Positions 9,608 through 24,479 of a stretch of 64,000 bases of DNA are shown here, one piece after another. The stretch comes from Deltaproteobacteria bacterium (GTDB lineage: Bacteria; Myxococcota_A; Polyangia; Polyangiales; JADJMO01). The notes under the pieces are model-generated. The model had not been told where the DNA came from. It ran no database searches and worked only from the letters and a program-made list of their open reading frames with translations. The stretch's first letter is position 1. Each line of letters starts with the position of its first letter. Both the position numbers and the translations under genes were made by a program. Location of the stretch: NCBI GenBank assembly GCA_025363655.1, contig JANYDK010000121.1, forward strand, positions 1-64,000, given 5' to 3'.

Positions 9608-10204
9608 TCAAATCCCCGCCGGGCACGCGTGCGGACCGGGGACGTCGATCAACAGCTCGCTGCTGACGCCGCTCGACCACTTGCCATTGAGGCGGACGCG
9701 GACGCGGCCCGTCTGTTCGTCGAGGTCGAGGATGGTCGCCTCGCCGGAGACCGTCTCCTCGTCGGCGAGTGCGCGACCGTCGTTCGAGTTCACGCGGATG
9801 GCGCGGGCGGTGACCCAGCCCGCGTCCTCGTCGAGAGCACGCTGACGGGTGACGAGCGGAAGGTGCGCGCCGGGCTTGGCGCCGTGGAGACGAAGCTCGA
9901 TCGCCGTTCCCGCGATGCCAGCGTGCTCGGTGGTGGCGATGCGAGGAACCGCGCACGACGCCGGCTCGGTGTGGAACGCGACGACGGTGAGCTCGCCATC
10001 GCCCCAGTGGCGGACGCTGACGTCTGTCGGGGAGAGGCAGACGGCGCCGCCGCAGACCTCGGTTTTGGTGGTGGCGGCCGAGACGTCGTCGCTGAGCCCG
10101 TCGACGTTGGCGACGCAGCCGGTGCTGAAGACCGAGACGCAGAGCCCGGCGAAGAGGACGAAGAGAGTGGGAAATGCCCAATGGGGAGTAAAACTGAAGG
10201 ACAT
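9608..10204 (-). CDS. secreted lipoprotein of unknown function
   Basis: The 198-residue product has a signal peptide with lipobox-like FSTGC (MSFSFTPHWAFPTLFVLFAG, then SVFSTGC). The mature part contains two cysteines near each other (VCGGAVCLSP), a third in PASCAVPR and one near the C-terminus (HACPAG), so disulfides are likely. No family is recognised. The ATG at 10204 is chosen because GGAGG sits six bases upstream. The gene is preceded by a palindromic promoter region (10218-10277), so it is probably regulated separately from the genes upstream on the same strand. Confidence 0.72.
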   Translation of the reverse strand: MSFSFTPHWAFPTLFVLFAGLCVSVFSTGCVANVDGLSDDVSAATTKTEVCGGAVCLSPTDVSVRHWGDGELTVVAFHTEPASCAVPRIATTEHAGIAGTAIELRLHGAKPGAHLPLVTRQRALDEDAGWVTARAIRVNSNDGRALADEETVSGEATILDLDEQTGRVRVRLNGKWSSGVSSELLIDVPGPHACPAGI

Positions 10205-15432: not shown

Positions 15433-16032
15433 TCAGGGCGTTTCCGCGTCGCTGACGTCACTCGCGTCGCTCGCGTCACGTGCGTCCGACACGTCGCCTG
15501 CGTCTCCTGCGTCCGGCTCCGGCGGATTGCAGAGGAATCCTTGCACGGTCCACACGCGATCGAAGGTGTCGATGCCGCGGCACGCCGCGTACGTGCGTGT
15601 GTCGTCTTCGCAGAGGCCGAAGTTGCACGCCATGTAGCCGAGGTGCGGCGCGCATGGGCAAGGGTCGCCGGCGCGCGGGGAGACGGTCGGGCACTTGGGG
15701 GTGTAGTCGATGCTGACGCGCGTCCAACGCAGACCGACGCCGTCATCCATGCACGCGTAGACGTTCTTCGGCTCTTTTTCGGGGCTGTCGGGACACTCGT
15801 CGGCGTAGCTGCATCGCACGCTCGGTTCGGCCGAACAGGGCGCACGCGCGGGGCCGAAGCCAGGGTCGCTCGTGGGGCATGGGGAGGCGTCGAGCGGAGC
15901 GCCGTCGGCGTTTGCGTCGGTCGTGGAGGTCTCGTTCGAGCCGACGTCGGCGCTCGGGACGCCAAGCGCGTCGTCGCTACAGCCGACGCCGAGGAGCGCG
16001 GTGATCACGAAGGGGGCGCGGAGGCGTTGCAT
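15433..16032 (-). CDS. small Cys-rich lipoprotein
   Basis: The 199-residue product has a lipoprotein signal (MQRLRAPFVITALLGVGC, lipobox GVGC followed by Ser-Asp). The mature protein is a low-complexity Asp/Ala/Thr region, then a domain with about eleven cysteines (PCPTSDP, APCSAEP, ECPDSP, KCPTVSP, PCPCAPH, CNFGLCED), then an Asp-Ala-Ser repetitive tail (AGDVSDARDASDASDV). Such proteins are common in myxobacteria and are usually outer-membrane anchored; no function is known. The Asp at +2/+3 may affect Lol sorting. It starts 19 bases after the fused ketosynthase gene on the same strand, so it may be the last gene of that operon. Confidence 0.7.
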   Translation of the reverse strand: MQRLRAPFVITALLGVGCSDDALGVPSADVGSNETSTTDANADGAPLDASPCPTSDPGFGPARAPCSAEPSVRCSYADECPDSPEKEPKNVYACMDDGVGLRWTRVSIDYTPKCPTVSPRAGDPCPCAPHLGYMACNFGLCEDDTRTYAACRGIDTFDRVWTVQGFLCNPPEPDAGDAGDVSDARDASDASDVSDAETP

Positions 16033-16050
16033 GGCGCACACGAGTCTGAC

Positions 16051-18234
16051 TCAAGGACGCTCGAGTCGCAGCCCGTAGACGCGACCGGGGCTGGTGCCGA
16101 GGATGAGAGCCGAGAAGACGCCCCCCTTGAGGAGGAGGCCGGCCGCTGCTGCGACGGCGAAACCGCCGAGCCCTTCGTGGCGCCCGACCGCCGGCGCGAC
16201 CTCGAGGATTTGCGCTTTTTCCCAGGGGGTTCGTTGGAGCGCTTCGCGGATCGCAGGAGTGATTTCGCTGACCACGACGGCACCTTTGACGAACGGAGGT
16301 GCCATCGCGCCGACGACTTCGGCGAGGGTTGCACCTTGCACGACCTGTTGGACGATGACGCGCTCTTCGACGAGCTCGGCTGTCTCGGGAGGCGGCTCGC
16401 GCGTGAGGCGGACGACTGCAGCGCCGGTCGTGCGTCGCGCTTCGCTGCGCTTCTCACCGGCGGCGTCGGAGAACGACGGCGCGATGCTGCTCTCGACGAT
16501 TTGGCTCGGGCCCTCGACGCTGCCGGCCGTGGCGGCGTCGATGAAGCCGCTGGCGATCAGCTCCCAGGCGGTGACGATCGCCGCTTCACCACTCGTCGCC
16601 AAATCGGCGATCGCGATCGCCGGTCCGTGGAGCGCGAGGTAGATCGACGCGTGTCCGCTCGGCGAGGAGGGCACCAAGTTGGGGAACTCGGCGGGCGGCG
16701 CCATGCGCGGACCTTTGGCGAAGACGCGCGCGAGGAAGGCGGCGCTCGCATCCGGGTCGCCGTAGCTGGTGCCGAGGAAGATGCCGTCGTTGCCGCTCGA
16801 CCACGCCAGTTGCGCAGCGGAAGCCGCCAGACGTGCGGCGCGATCGAGGCGGCGGGCGCGCACGAGATCGAGCGTCGCGGTGGGATCTTCCACCTCCGGA
16901 TCGCCTGCGGAGGGCGCTGGCTGCGGCTCGAGGAGGCGCGCGTTCTCATCCCACTGGAGGCCGCCCATGCGCGAGGCCGAGCCGATGCCGGTGACCCAAA
17001 CAGCACGCGCCGGGCGCTCTTGTTCGGCCGCGTAGCCGAGCTTCGCGAAGGCGAGCACGGTGTCGACGCCGCCGAAGCCGAAGGCGTTGGAGAGGGCGAC
17101 CCGCACGTTCGTCTCGGCCGCGGCTCCGACGACGTGACGAAGCGCGCTGCAGGCCGGATCGACCTGTTCGAGACCGCCGGTCGGGGGCACCTTGCCGTCG
17201 CGAATCGCGAGCACGGTGAAGATCGCCTCGATGGCGCCGGCCGCGCCGAGAGTGTGGCCGATTTGGCCCTTCGTCGAAGAAACATAAATACGTGATGTTT
17301 CTTCGCCGAAAGCCTTCTGCAGGGCTGCCGTTTCCATCACGTCGTTGAGCGTCGTGCCCGTCCCGTGGGCGTTGACGTAGTCGACGTCGGTCGGCGCGAG
17401 GGCGGCTTCTTTGAGCGCCTTTGCGATGGCCTCTGCCGGGTACTCGCCGGACTCGTGCGGGTTGGTGATGTGGTGCGCCTCGGAGACGATGCCGGCACCG
17501 ACGAGCTCGGCGAGGGGCGGAACGCCGCGTGCGCCCGCGCGCTCTTCGCGTTCGAGGACCGCGAAGCCAGCGCCTTCGCCGATGTTGAGGCCGCGGCGTC
17601 GGGCGTCGAAGGGACGCGCCTGTCCGACGTCCATCGCGCCGAGCGCGTTGAAGCCGGTGAAGGTGAGGCGACAGAGACCGTCGGCGCCGCCGACGAGCAC
17701 TGCATCGACGAGGTCGAGCTCGAGCCACGCGCGTCCGAGCGCGAAGGCATTGGCGCCGCTCGAGCACGCCGAACAAAGGGTGCGCGTGCGCGCGAAGGGA
17801 CCGAGGACGCTCGCGAGTCGATCGCTCGTGGCCGAGAGCGGGTGCGCCAGCATCGCTGGGTTGGGCACGCGTGCGCTCGGTTCGGCGTGCATCTTCGCCA
17901 GCAGCGCTTCGGTCTCGTACATGCCGCCGGTGGTCCCGCCGACGACGATTCCCAGGCGAATTCCCGTACGATTCTCCAGCTTGGCCGCGCGCAACGCTTG
18001 GCGTGCGGCAGAGAGCGCGAGCGCGTCGGTGCGTGACCACGGTGAGCCGCCTTCGGTCGGAACGACGAGATCGGGCACCTCGGCGGCGAGGCTCGAGCGC
18101 TGTCCTTCGGTCGAGAAGAGACGGGCCGGGGTGGCGCCGCGATCACCGCGAAGGACGCGCTGCCAGACGCCGTCGACGGTGTCGCCGAGCGCGCAGATCA
18201 CGCCGAGGCCGCTGACCGCGACGCGCAAGCTCAA
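16051..18234 (-). CDS. fused beta-ketoacyl synthase with degenerate second KS-like domain
   Basis: The 727-residue product contains an intact KS domain (about 1-400) with active Cys157 (SACSSG), His290 (NAHGTGTT), Lys322 and His327 (TKGQIGHTLGAAG), and the NAFGFGG loop. A second KS-like region follows (about 410-727), starting AVWVTGIGSA. There the Cys position reads DLATSG, so it is Ala546, and the His/His motifs are missing. This recalls a KS-chain-length-factor pair fused into one chain, although classical type II PKS CLFs carry Gln instead. It begins with TTG at 18234, overlapping the ACP stop in TTGA. Together they probably act as a condensing unit on ACP-bound acyl chains. The product is unknown. 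Confidence 0.85.
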   Translation of the reverse strand: MSLRVAVSGLGVICALGDTVDGVWQRVLRGDRGATPARLFSTEGQRSSLAAEVPDLVVPTEGGSPWSRTDALALSAARQALRAAKLENRTGIRLGIVVGGTTGGMYETEALLAKMHAEPSARVPNPAMLAHPLSATSDRLASVLGPFARTRTLCSACSSGANAFALGRAWLELDLVDAVLVGGADGLCRLTFTGFNALGAMDVGQARPFDARRRGLNIGEGAGFAVLEREERAGARGVPPLAELVGAGIVSEAHHITNPHESGEYPAEAIAKALKEAALAPTDVDYVNAHGTGTTLNDVMETAALQKAFGEETSRIYVSSTKGQIGHTLGAAGAIEAIFTVLAIRDGKVPPTGGLEQVDPACSALRHVVGAAAETNVRVALSNAFGFGGVDTVLAFAKLGYAAEQERPARAVWVTGIGSASRMGGLQWDENARLLEPQPAPSAGDPEVEDPTATLDLVRARRLDRAARLAASAAQLAWSSGNDGIFLGTSYGDPDASAAFLARVFAKGPRMAPPAEFPNLVPSSPSGHASIYLALHGPAIAIADLATSGEAAIVTAWELIASGFIDAATAGSVEGPSQIVESSIAPSFSDAAGEKRSEARRTTGAAVVRLTREPPPETAELVEERVIVQQVVQGATLAEVVGAMAPPFVKGAVVVSEITPAIREALQRTPWEKAQILEVAPAVGRHEGLGGFAVAAAAGLLLKGGVFSALILGTSPGRVYGLRLERP

Positions 18235-18515
18235 CCCGCGGCTTTCGGCCCGTCGCCGGCAGGGTGCTCGACGATCCATCGTGCGAGCGCAGCGACCGAG
18301 GCGAAGGCGATGCGGCCTTCGGGTCCTTCGGGGATGCGTACGTTCCAGCGCTCTTCGACCGACATCGCCAGCTGCAGTGCATCGAGCGAGTCGAGCCCGA
18401 GGCCTTCTCCGAAGAGCGGCGCCTCGTCGACGATCGACGACGGATCGCGACCCTCGAGGTTCAGCTCTTTGACGATGAGCGACTTGAGCTCGTTCTGCAG
18501 CGCGGCGACGTCCAT
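18231..18515 (-). CDS. acyl carrier protein
   Basis: The 94-residue product is a stand-alone ACP. The phosphopantetheine site is Ser43 in GLGLDSLDALQL, which extends the DSL motif. The four-helix length and the acidic pattern (KELNLEGRDPSSIVDEAPLF) match the family. The start is ATG 18515; upstream codons are an Arg/Ser shadow. The stop overlaps the start of the ketosynthase gene, so the ACP is likely its cognate carrier. It is a second-type ACP, not the housekeeping acpP, because it lies away from fabD/fabG/fabF genes. Confidence 0.9.
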   Translation of the reverse strand: MDVAALQNELKSLIVKELNLEGRDPSSIVDEAPLFGEGLGLDSLDALQLAMSVEERWNVRIPEGPEGRIAFASVAALARWIVEHPAGDGPKAAG

Positions 18516-21285: not shown

Positions 21286-24200
21286 CTAGGTGCCCGGCGC
21301 TCGGTGCGGGTCGATGATGCGATCGGGATACTTTCGCATCACGTCGACGCGCGTCGGCGGGATGAGCTGGTGGATCAGCGGCATCAGCGTCTTCACGTCG
21401 AAGCTGCCGAGGAAGACGCGGTTCTGCGCGTCGTGCGGCCCCTCGAGCACCTTCAGCCGCTCGCCGGTGCTGCGACGATAGACGCCGATGAAGACGTCGT
21501 ACTTGCCGGGCTTCATCGTGAACGGCGGGAGCTGGAAGAGCGTGCGATCTTCGAGAATTTCGCCGGCTTTCCAGCGATTCGCCGGATACATCCAGTCGCC
21601 CGGCGTGTGATCGCCCGGGGCTTGGAAGCCCTCGCGCGTGACGTGGACGAAGATGGTGAGGTCTTCCTCCATCGGCCCCGGCAACTTCCACCAGGTGGTC
21701 ATGAAGACCTCGTGGCGCTCGAGCGTCTCCGGCGTCAGCTCGGAGCCGAGGAGCTCGAGGTCGCGCTCGAACTTCACCTTCGGGCCCCCGAGGTTCGGCG
21801 GCGCAGTGTCGAGCACCACCTCGCGCGGGGTCTGCTCCCAGAGATCGCGCCGACGCCAGAGCGAGAGGTAGTACCCGAGCGAGCGCTGCCACGTGCGAAC
21901 GTGCACGTATTTCTGCTGGAAACGCGGGTCGGCGAAGATCTGGAATTGGTAGGGGTTGCTGTTGAAGGTGCTGCCGAGCGCGCCCGGGCCCGGGTCTTTT
22001 TCGAAGGCCTGCGCGATGCGCTGCTCTTCTCCCCGCGGCGTGTAGATGGTGAGGATGGCCCACTCGGGGTTGCGCTTGAAATAGTACTCGCGCATCTCGG
22101 CGTCGTACTTCGACTGGTTGTTGTCGAGGTCGCCTCCGGCGAAGGCGTGCAGCCCGTAGTTGTGTCGTGCGTGCGCGACGGTGCCGTCGACGAGGCCGAT
22201 GAAGTCGAGGAAGTTGATGTCCGGCGCGTGGTACGGCGTCGAGCCCATGTCTTGGAACGCCACCAGCGCGCCGGGGCGCTCGTGGCGGACGATGAACTTG
22301 CCGAGATCGGGGTGGAACGTGCCGGCGAGATCGCCGTGGCCGTCGAAGCCGTGTTGCTCTTTGTAGGTGAACTGGAAGCTGTTCCAGCCCGCGACCGCCA
22401 CTGCGCCCCAACCGAGCGCGTAGACGTATCCTCGAATCGACTCGCTCTTCAGGAGCTTCAGCGTGGCGTCGATCAAGTTCTGCGCGCCGAGGGCGGCGAG
22501 CACCGCGGTGAAGGGAAGCGCAGGCAAATAGAGCCGGTGCCACTGCATCTCGTCGACGCCGACCTTCACGTAGAAGGCCATGAAGGCGAGGCTGATGATC
22601 GCCATCATCGACTTCTCGACGAGGCGCTTGCGATCGGCGAACGCGAGCGGCGCGAGGACGACGAGCACGCCCATGTCGTTGAACTCGAACATGTCGTGGA
22701 GCGTCTTGATGCCTTCGCGCCAGACCAGCGAACCGGTGCCCGTCTTCACGTAGAACGTGTTGGGGACGATGGTGCCGTAGTACTTCCAACGGAAGAGGTG
22801 GCAGGGCACCGTGATGAGGAGGATGCCGCCGACGTAGAGGAGCTGCGCGCGCGAGATTTTACGTGCTCGAACGGCGTCGAGCACCAGCGGGAGACCGACG
22901 AGGATGGCCATCAAGTGGAGCTCGGGTCGCGTGATGCAACCGAGGCCCATGAGCACGCCGGCGATGAAATATTTCCTCGGCAGGATGGTGCCGTCACCCG
23001 AGGCGGGAGCGATCTTCGCGCGCGCGGTCCAGAGGACGAAGGCGCCGACGATGGGGAGGAGCTGCGCCAGTGGCTGCTCGAGGCCGCTCTTCGCCCAGAG
23101 CACGAAGCTCGACGAGCACGCGAGCCACGCCGCGCCCCAGAGGTGCGAGAGCTCCTTGCGCTCGCCGTTGATCCACGAGGTGAAGCGAACCACCTCGATG
23201 AGGCAGGCGATGCCGAGGACGGTGCCGAGCACCTCGCACACTTGGAAGAGGTCCCAGCCGAGCGCTTCGAAGGGCGCGAGGATGAGCACCCAGAGAAAGT
23301 TGGTGAAGCCCTCGAGCTTCTCGCCCGGGTTGAAGACGAGCCCTTGCCCCTTCACCAGGTTGTGCGCGTAACGAAACGAGATGTACGCGTCGTCCTTGAC
23401 GAACTCGAGGACGACGAGAATCCCCAGGAAAAATGGCACCGCCGGCGCGAAGGGAGCGACTCTGCGGAGCCAGTCGGGGAGAGGACGCGCGGCCGAAGCA
23501 GCCGACTCGTCGTCGTCGCTGTCGCTGCGACGGAGGAAGAAGAAAGCCGCTACCACGATGCCGCCGAAGATCGCGCCGAGCCACGCGCGCCACGGACGCA
23601 CGAGGCCCCAGTACTCGAGGAGCGCCATCTGCCGCGGCGTGATCGTGCGCAGCGTCGCGTCGGGGTTCGCGGGGACGAGCTCGACGAAGCCGGCGTGGAC
23701 GCGGTTGTCGGGGGTCTTCGGCGTCAGCACCTTGAGGCGCGCCCACGTCGTTCGGTCGTAGAGGCCGGCGAAAATCTCGAAACGTCCCGGCTTGCACGAG
23801 GCCGGCACCTGCAGCGTCACCGCGTGCGTGATCTCACCATCGGCCCACTTCAACGTGCTCGGCGTCGGCGGCTGATCTTGGACGAGACGACACTGCGTGG
23901 TGGCGTTGCTCACCGACTCGACGTGGATGAAGAACCACAAGTCGGCGTCGAGCGCGTGCTTGCTGCGGAGCTTGAAAGTGAGCGGGATGGTGCCGCCCGG
24001 GCTCGCCTCGTTCGGTGTCGTCACCGACGTGAGGGAGACGTCCTGCTCGAAGAGGATCTTGTCGTCGACGCTGCGGGAGATGAACACCACCGCGGCGATC
24101 ACCACCGCGATCAGCGCCATCAGCGCTCGGAGCAACTGGCCCTGCGTCTTCTTGCGCGCGGCCAGATCGGGCCCCTTCGTCTTCTTCGCGGAGGGCTTCT

Positions 24201-24396
24201 CCGGCGTCTTCTCCGGGCTCTTCTCGGGCTTGCTCTCCGGCGGATCGCTCTTCGGCCGCGGCGGGAGCGAGCTGCGCGTCTTCGCACGCGGCGAGGCGGC
24301 GAGGGTCCCCTCCGGGTCGGGCTCGGCGACGTCTTCGTCATCGACGCGCGGCTGCGGGGGATCACTCTTCTTGCTCTCGTCGTCCTTCTCGGTCAT
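21286..24396 (-). CDS. GT-C family membrane glycosyltransferase with flanking beta-sandwich domains
   Basis: The 1036-residue product starts with a cytoplasmic Lys/Pro/Ser-rich tail (about 1-88), one transmembrane helix (about 91-110), a periplasmic beta-sandwich (about 115-240), then a multi-helix core with the GT-C acidic motif Asp335-Asp336 (VKDDAYISFRYA) and EGFTNFLWVL. These are the hallmarks of AftB/GT39-like enzymes that use polyprenyl-phosphate sugars. A soluble periplasmic region follows, ending in a second beta-sandwich. The two sandwiches resemble each other (GLYDRTTWARLKVLTP and GVYRRSTGERLKVLEG, each followed by NRV), so one probably arose by duplication. The ATG is at 24396. The glycan target is unknown. 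Confidence 0.8.
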   Translation of the reverse strand: MTEKDDESKKSDPPQPRVDDEDVAEPDPEGTLAASPRAKTRSSLPPRPKSDPPESKPEKSPEKTPEKPSAKKTKGPDLAARKKTQGQLLRALMALIAVVIAAVVFISRSVDDKILFEQDVSLTSVTTPNEASPGGTIPLTFKLRSKHALDADLWFFIHVESVSNATTQCRLVQDQPPTPSTLKWADGEITHAVTLQVPASCKPGRFEIFAGLYDRTTWARLKVLTPKTPDNRVHAGFVELVPANPDATLRTITPRQMALLEYWGLVRPWRAWLGAIFGGIVVAAFFFLRRSDSDDDESAASAARPLPDWLRRVAPFAPAVPFFLGILVVLEFVKDDAYISFRYAHNLVKGQGLVFNPGEKLEGFTNFLWVLILAPFEALGWDLFQVCEVLGTVLGIACLIEVVRFTSWINGERKELSHLWGAAWLACSSSFVLWAKSGLEQPLAQLLPIVGAFVLWTARAKIAPASGDGTILPRKYFIAGVLMGLGCITRPELHLMAILVGLPLVLDAVRARKISRAQLLYVGGILLITVPCHLFRWKYYGTIVPNTFYVKTGTGSLVWREGIKTLHDMFEFNDMGVLVVLAPLAFADRKRLVEKSMMAIISLAFMAFYVKVGVDEMQWHRLYLPALPFTAVLAALGAQNLIDATLKLLKSESIRGYVYALGWGAVAVAGWNSFQFTYKEQHGFDGHGDLAGTFHPDLGKFIVRHERPGALVAFQDMGSTPYHAPDINFLDFIGLVDGTVAHARHNYGLHAFAGGDLDNNQSKYDAEMREYYFKRNPEWAILTIYTPRGEEQRIAQAFEKDPGPGALGSTFNSNPYQFQIFADPRFQQKYVHVRTWQRSLGYYLSLWRRRDLWEQTPREVVLDTAPPNLGGPKVKFERDLELLGSELTPETLERHEVFMTTWWKLPGPMEEDLTIFVHVTREGFQAPGDHTPGDWMYPANRWKAGEILEDRTLFQLPPFTMKPGKYDVFIGVYRRSTGERLKVLEGPHDAQNRVFLGSFDVKTLMPLIHQLIPPTRVDVMRKYPDRIIDPHRAPGT

Positions 24397-24479
24397 CGCG
24401 GGGCGCACGGTAGCTCACGCGGCCGCCGAGCGAAAACGGTCGGGCAATCATCGAGTGATTATGTGATTTCGCGCACGGC

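Follow-up and report, generated by a model that had tools for sequence, protein, structure and literature searches.

How does an ACP paired with a ketosynthase whose second half has lost its active-site cysteine make a product when no tailoring enzymes are encoded around it? Two genes on the minus strand of the 64,000-nucleotide stretch of Deltaproteobacteria bacterium DNA analysed here (the window) raise this question. From its relatives, we take the organism to be a myxobacterium of the order Polyangiales. The first (18231-18515) encodes an ACP of 94 residues, with the phosphopantetheine serine, Ser43, in the motif GLGLDSLDAL. The second (16051-18234) encodes a 727-residue protein that joins a ketosynthase domain, KS1 (residues 1-398; 17041-18234), to a Cys-less domain, CLF1 (residues 408-727; 16054-17013). 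A sequence-only reading of positions 15433-18515 had proposed this arrangement, and we found the frames as it claimed and the ACP and ketosynthase domains confirmed by Pfam.

The two genes are tightly linked, whichever of two TTG codons starts the second. Starting at TTG 18234, the genes overlap by 4 nt; starting at TTG 18228 they are separated by 2 nt, and the closest homologue has its start residue at this second TTG, 2 nt behind the ACP stop. The TTGA overlap noted previously is therefore real only with the first TTG, and it suggests translational coupling rather than the stoichiometric production that had been read into it. No promoter or terminator consensus was found at the locus. The association is conserved: wherever the locus of a relative was checked, the gene immediately in front of KS1/CLF1 encodes an ACP, and the spacing varies from about -13 to +63 nt.

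KS1 has the properties of an active ketosynthase. Residues 1 to about 400 match both ketoacyl-synt domains in Pfam (E = 2.5e-27 for the N-terminal and 7.7e-37 for the C-terminal domain) and score 346.7 bits with a fabF-type profile. Cys157, His290, Lys322 and His327 are invariant among 38 aligned homologues (the cysteine and the two histidines are encoded on the minus strand at 17764-17766, 17365-17367 and 17254-17256, respectively). Against FabF structures, VIA-align gave a Z of about 60 over 397 residues; its matches concern mainly the KS half, and CLF chains missing from them carry no meaning. KS1 would thus be expected to carry out the decarboxylative condensation of malonyl-ACP with an acyl chain.

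Comparison with related genomes showed that the pair, previously treated as standing alone, is half of a larger unit. The typical operon in most Polyangiaceae-type relatives runs from the ACP and KS1/CLF1 genes through LIP, which encodes a LolA/B-like lipoprotein, to a second fused gene, KS2/CLF2. The latter lies behind KS1/CLF1 in 17 of 19 Polyangiaceae-type loci, and LIP is found between or behind the two KS/CLF genes in 16 of the 19. Because LIP and KS2/CLF2 sit on another contig of the window's genome, C43 (L017:8873-11543), the window holds only the first half. The two fused genes occupy different contigs in other genomes of the window's family as well, and for this family we assume that the halves function jointly. 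The new element described here is this conserved Polyangiales operon, in which genes for an ACP and a lipoprotein accompany those for two single-chain KS-CLFs; no paper describing it was found in the literature searched. Many of the Polyangiaceae-type loci also have an enoyl-CoA hydratase gene divergently upstream of the ACP gene (for example, L053:11069-11863, L064:10582-11373, L066:11001-11795 and L114:4705-5508); no such gene was seen in the window. In many relatives, the gene after KS2/CLF2 encodes a small lipoprotein that has a weak SnoaL-like match (L064:4481-4981, L114:10940-11485).

KS2, like KS1, retains its catalytic residues: Cys152, His282, Lys314 and His319 are kept in 25 of 25 sequences. 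CLF2 has no catalytic residues in this set and is only about 190-250 residues long. LIP belongs to no Pfam family that we could find and has no detectable profile similarity to ApeN, leaving an ApeN/DUF3261 assignment without support. Its top 27 Foldseek matches are all lipoprotein carriers of the LolA/LolB superfamily, obtained with a poor model (two sequences, pLDDT 46), which is suggestive of a LolA/B-like lipid carrier.

Several features link these proteins to aryl polyene synthesis. KS domains and CLF domains separate in our trees, and KS1, KS2 and E. coli ApeO fall into one clade (98/92) outside FabF, ApeR and NodE; the comparison with FabF and aryl polyene enzymes proposed at the outset thus places KS1 with ApeO. 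The ACP matches PF00550 in Pfam (E = 8e-8), and its best NCBIfam model is the aryl-polyene model PRK09184, with 66.3 bits against a cut-off of 70 (E. coli ApeE, 89.5). The companion model PRK09185 is the best match of KS2 and the third best of KS1, with scores of 220.9 and 322.2 bits, respectively, against a cut-off of 407 (E. coli ApeO, 556). Both the KS and the ACP therefore fall short of the curated cut-offs. The likeness to the ApeO-ApeC/ApeE system (PMC8358021) extends to a gene for a LolA/B-like lipoprotein close to that for the KS, and to the half-sized CLF2, which recalls ApeC with its single thiolase domain (PMC8358021).

There are also differences. Whereas ApeO and ApeC are separate chains, KS and CLF are fused here and there are two such pairs, and no gene for ApeR, ApeQ, ApeP/I, ApeH or ApeM lies nearby. 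At the window locus and the compared Polyangiaceae-type loci, we found no linked KR, DH, ApeR-type KS, ligase or MMPL exporter, and neither the KS1/CLF1 nor the KS2/CLF2 locus has a linked thioesterase or second ACP, in line with the early impression of a neighbourhood without ketoreductase, malonyl transferase or thioesterase. Judged by profile scores and linked genes, the locus falls outside the aryl polyene clusters, and its aryl-polyene-like character would rest on phylogeny and gene content. Elsewhere among the collected loci, two from other Myxococcota (L101:1114-3440, L106:136-2243) have a fused KS2/CLF2-like gene directly followed by an ApeK-like 4HBT thioesterase gene. Two others (L104:5114-12801, L109:4000-12261) combine a fused KS/CLF with ApeE-like and ApeF-like ACPs and an ApeR-like KS, and L104 also has a FabA-like dehydratase; these are fuller aryl-polyene-like clusters.

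We favor, with a probability of roughly two in three, the reading that the locus encodes one half of a system built on two enzymes: a type II PKS that is aryl-polyene-like, reduced and fused, and that borrows its KR, DH and malonyl transferase from FAS. The ACP and KS1/CLF1 would constitute one half, and KS2-CLF2, with its shorter, ApeC-like CLF, together with LIP the other. Keto reduction, dehydration and malonyl loading would be supplied by dissociated fatty-acid synthase enzymes, for which NodF/NodE offer a precedent, and the product may be a polyene or an otherwise unusual acyl chain. Borrowing of this kind is possible because dissociated FAS-type genes are present in the genome. FabA/FabZ-type dehydratases are encoded there, and contig C43 carries, at about 12.3-18.5 kb (L018:4324-10501), genes for FabD, an SDR, FabH, FabA, FabZ, a divergent FabF-like KS, an ACP and an ACPS. 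This run makes up a second set of dissociated fatty-acid/polyketide synthase genes; LIP-KS2/CLF2 lies on the same contig at a distance of about 70 kb. The earlier conjecture that the unit must borrow a ketoreductase and a malonyl transferase is, with FabD, the SDR, FabH, FabA, FabZ, the ACP and the ACPS in the genome, plausible. The presence of two KS/CLF pairs and the grouping with ApeO, an elongating KS, make its other suggestion, a single condensation, less likely.

NodF and NodE, an ACP and KS pair without tailoring enzymes of its own, borrow the remaining steps from FAS. The ACP and KS1/CLF1 might likewise add one or a few malonyl units to an acyl chain from the primary FAS, with the second KS/CLF acting independently. 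The compact ACP and KS pair has the layout of the NodF/NodE genes seen in locus L076, and in the window's family KS1/CLF1 is unlinked from KS2/CLF2, as this reading would have it. However, NodE has no CLF and branches elsewhere in the tree, outside the clade of ApeO, KS1 and KS2, and most other relatives carry both KS/CLFs in one operon. We consider a NodF/NodE-like unit unlikely, though it deserves some weight.

The favored reading also assigns a role to the second half of the protein. Across the 38 homologues, position 546, where the nucleophile would lie (Ala546 in the window, codon 16597-16599 on the minus strand), is occupied by Ala, Gly, Ser, Glu or Asp and never by Cys. Neither catalytic histidine is at its position, although 31 of the 38 have a histidine one residue away (His686). 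The loss of the nucleophile and of both catalytic histidines seen in the single sequence is thus a feature of the alignment, and the second half is not a complete active KS. It is nonetheless related to ketosynthases: its best sequence matches among solved structures are KS proteins, with weak scores (9s5h_C, 7e-10), and its Ketoacyl-synt_2 match in Pfam (E = 0.022) is under the threshold. In hhalign comparisons, CLF1 was closest to the unfused CLF of locus L107 (5.6e-23), followed by CLF2 (5e-20), a Streptomyces CLF (2e-17) and its own KS1 (1e-11); profiles side with CLFs over KSs. Profile comparison of CLF1 with the single E. coli ApeC sequence detected no similarity, and a PF13723 profile search of the whole genome gave no match.

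Structure prediction of 16051-18234, which had been suggested as a check, produced a model resembling a KS:CLF pseudo-dimer. AlphaFold modelled the whole 727-residue chain with a pLDDT of 88.6 and a pTM of 0.93 (alignment of 15 sequences), and CLF1 as a complete but short thiolase-like fold of about 320 residues. The top Foldseek match of the whole chain, aligned over the whole model with a TMq of 0.82, is 6RIW, the PfaC KS-CLF didomain of a PUFA synthase (Santin et al. 2020, cited in PMC12895367); the remaining matches shown span about one KS domain. The model thus favors a single chain that folds into a KS:CLF pseudo-dimer. Because the best whole-chain match is itself a single-chain KS-CLF, the idea that the second half acts as a chain length factor in cis, one of two roles proposed for it earlier, is well supported by the predicted structure. 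CLF1 would pack on KS1 in the same chain, taking the place of the partner in a KS homodimer. It probably also bounds the chain tunnel, and so probably sets chain length, by analogy with the KS-CLF of PfaC, with actinorhodin and with ApeO-ApeC.

The second half might instead be a degenerate KS retained purely as a structural dimerization partner, with no control over chain length. At about 320 residues CLF1 is shorter than KS1, it is more divergent (54% identity between the window and L052, versus 67% for KS1) and part of its C-terminal half is modelled at low pLDDT, all of which would fit a degenerating domain. Yet CLF1 falls among the true CLFs of systems in which KS and CLF are unfused, and it keeps conserved positions of its own, such as Glu550 in 36 of the 38 homologues, which makes a purely structural role rather improbable.

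The single chain, regarded at first as exceptional, has precedents: the architecture is already known from the solved 6RIW, and, besides PfaC, single-chain KS-CLF ORFs occur in six phyla. PfaC shares with KS1/CLF1 an active KS and a CLF in one chain and the same whole-chain arrangement. A remnant or offshoot of PfaC could explain why 6RIW is the best whole-chain structural match, but PfaC belongs to a type I megasynthase and is only 16% identical, while the protein described here is a stand-alone chain of 727 residues with a separate ACP. The chain comprises only KS-CLF, with no DH-DH domains and no megasynthase around it, and its score with PfaA is 66.7 bits, the cut-off being 1010, so we regard this origin as very unlikely. 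We also found single-chain KS-CLFs with a Cys-less second half on a Streptomyces plasmid (NZ_CP108982, 787 residues) and a Lachnospira eligens plasmid (NC_012780, 797 residues). These differ in that their clusters have their own FabD, KR and DH; they are about 30% identical, and their KSs form separate branches. The Lachnospira cluster, from a gut bacterium, is compact (L075:7251-12560), with an ACP, the single-chain KS-CLF, FabG, FabZ and FabD. Tandem KS-KS' ORFs were present in Clostridium, Oscillospiraceae, Bacteroidales, Verrucomicrobia, Thermosporothrix, Saccharothrix and Herbidospora. The literature searched yielded no published fused KS-CLF in myxobacteria or in a type II PKS catalogue. 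KS1/CLF1 works like a KS-CLF but stands outside the classical type II minimal sets, in which KS and CLF are separate polypeptides.

The fusion is long-standing and conserved rather than an error of assembly, since 48 genomes carry it and the ACP gene is in front wherever this was checked. Uninterrupted, near-full-length homologues were listed as matches in 48 of the 183 genomes of the order searched, the window's own included. Those outside the window's genome are 41-61% identical, and several further ones are broken at contig ends. Polyangium sp. y55x31 (L114) and Polyangiaceae bacterium SJ398 (L138) are named carriers; in the scan of named genomes, a single-protein query gave nothing and an alignment query gave matches. 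Two genes merged by sequencing error, the outcome that would have undone the sequence-only reading, or a decaying FabF copy can be dismissed in view of the 48 genomes with an intact fused gene, the invariant catalytic triad of KS1 and GC3 that is high in one frame along the whole of 16051-18234.

How the fusion arose is suggested by locus L107, which comes from a different part of the phylum. There (L107:6481-12498), genes for KS2, CLF2, an ACP, a short protein, KS1 and CLF1 lie on one strand, all separate, and KS1 and KS2 each have their own unfused relative in this locus. The short protein looks FabZ dehydratase-like by eye and has no Pfam match. Because this unfused set exists and CLF1 is nearer to CLFs than to its own KS1, sequence comparison indicates that old, separate KS and CLF genes were fused, as two distinct pairs. 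A tandem duplication of KS1 was considered and rejected, as CLF1 groups with the CLFs of other systems.

Directly downstream of KS1/CLF1, the window encodes a Cys-rich lipoprotein (P0003; 15433-16041, minus strand) with a lipobox-like sequence ending in LLGVGC. It had been proposed as a possible receiver of the product. The lipobox bears out its presence as a lipoprotein, but no homologue of it was found beside KS1/CLF1 in relatives. Apart from a paralogue on contig C89, it had a single weak match, in genome G051, and it is unrelated to LIP. We therefore dropped it as a product acceptor and judge it to be outside the system. Elsewhere in the window, ARAGORN calls a 94-nt tRNA-Ala (anticodon cgc) at 9709-9802 among overlapping ORFs, probably a false call, and 21286-24408 encodes a 1040-residue protein with a strong codon signal, hydrophobic stretches and no Pfam match.

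If LIP is a carrier of the LolA/B type, as its predicted fold suggests, the acyl chain may be moved to the outer membrane. More tentatively than for the enzyme system itself, we propose that the operon represents a hitherto undescribed pathway of the Polyangiales, maintained by vertical descent, for a lipid or pigment. Two different single-chain KS-CLFs would share one ACP, the host FAS would perform every other step and the unusual acyl or polyene product would reach the outer membrane through a dedicated LolA/B-like lipoprotein. Natural single-chain KS-CLFs avoid the usual problem of balancing two subunits, and two of them acting on one ACP would offer a clean way to probe how a CLF sets chain length. 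For the organisms themselves, this conserved, unannotated operon predicts that a large family of myxobacteria shares a so far unrecognized lipid or pigment of the envelope.
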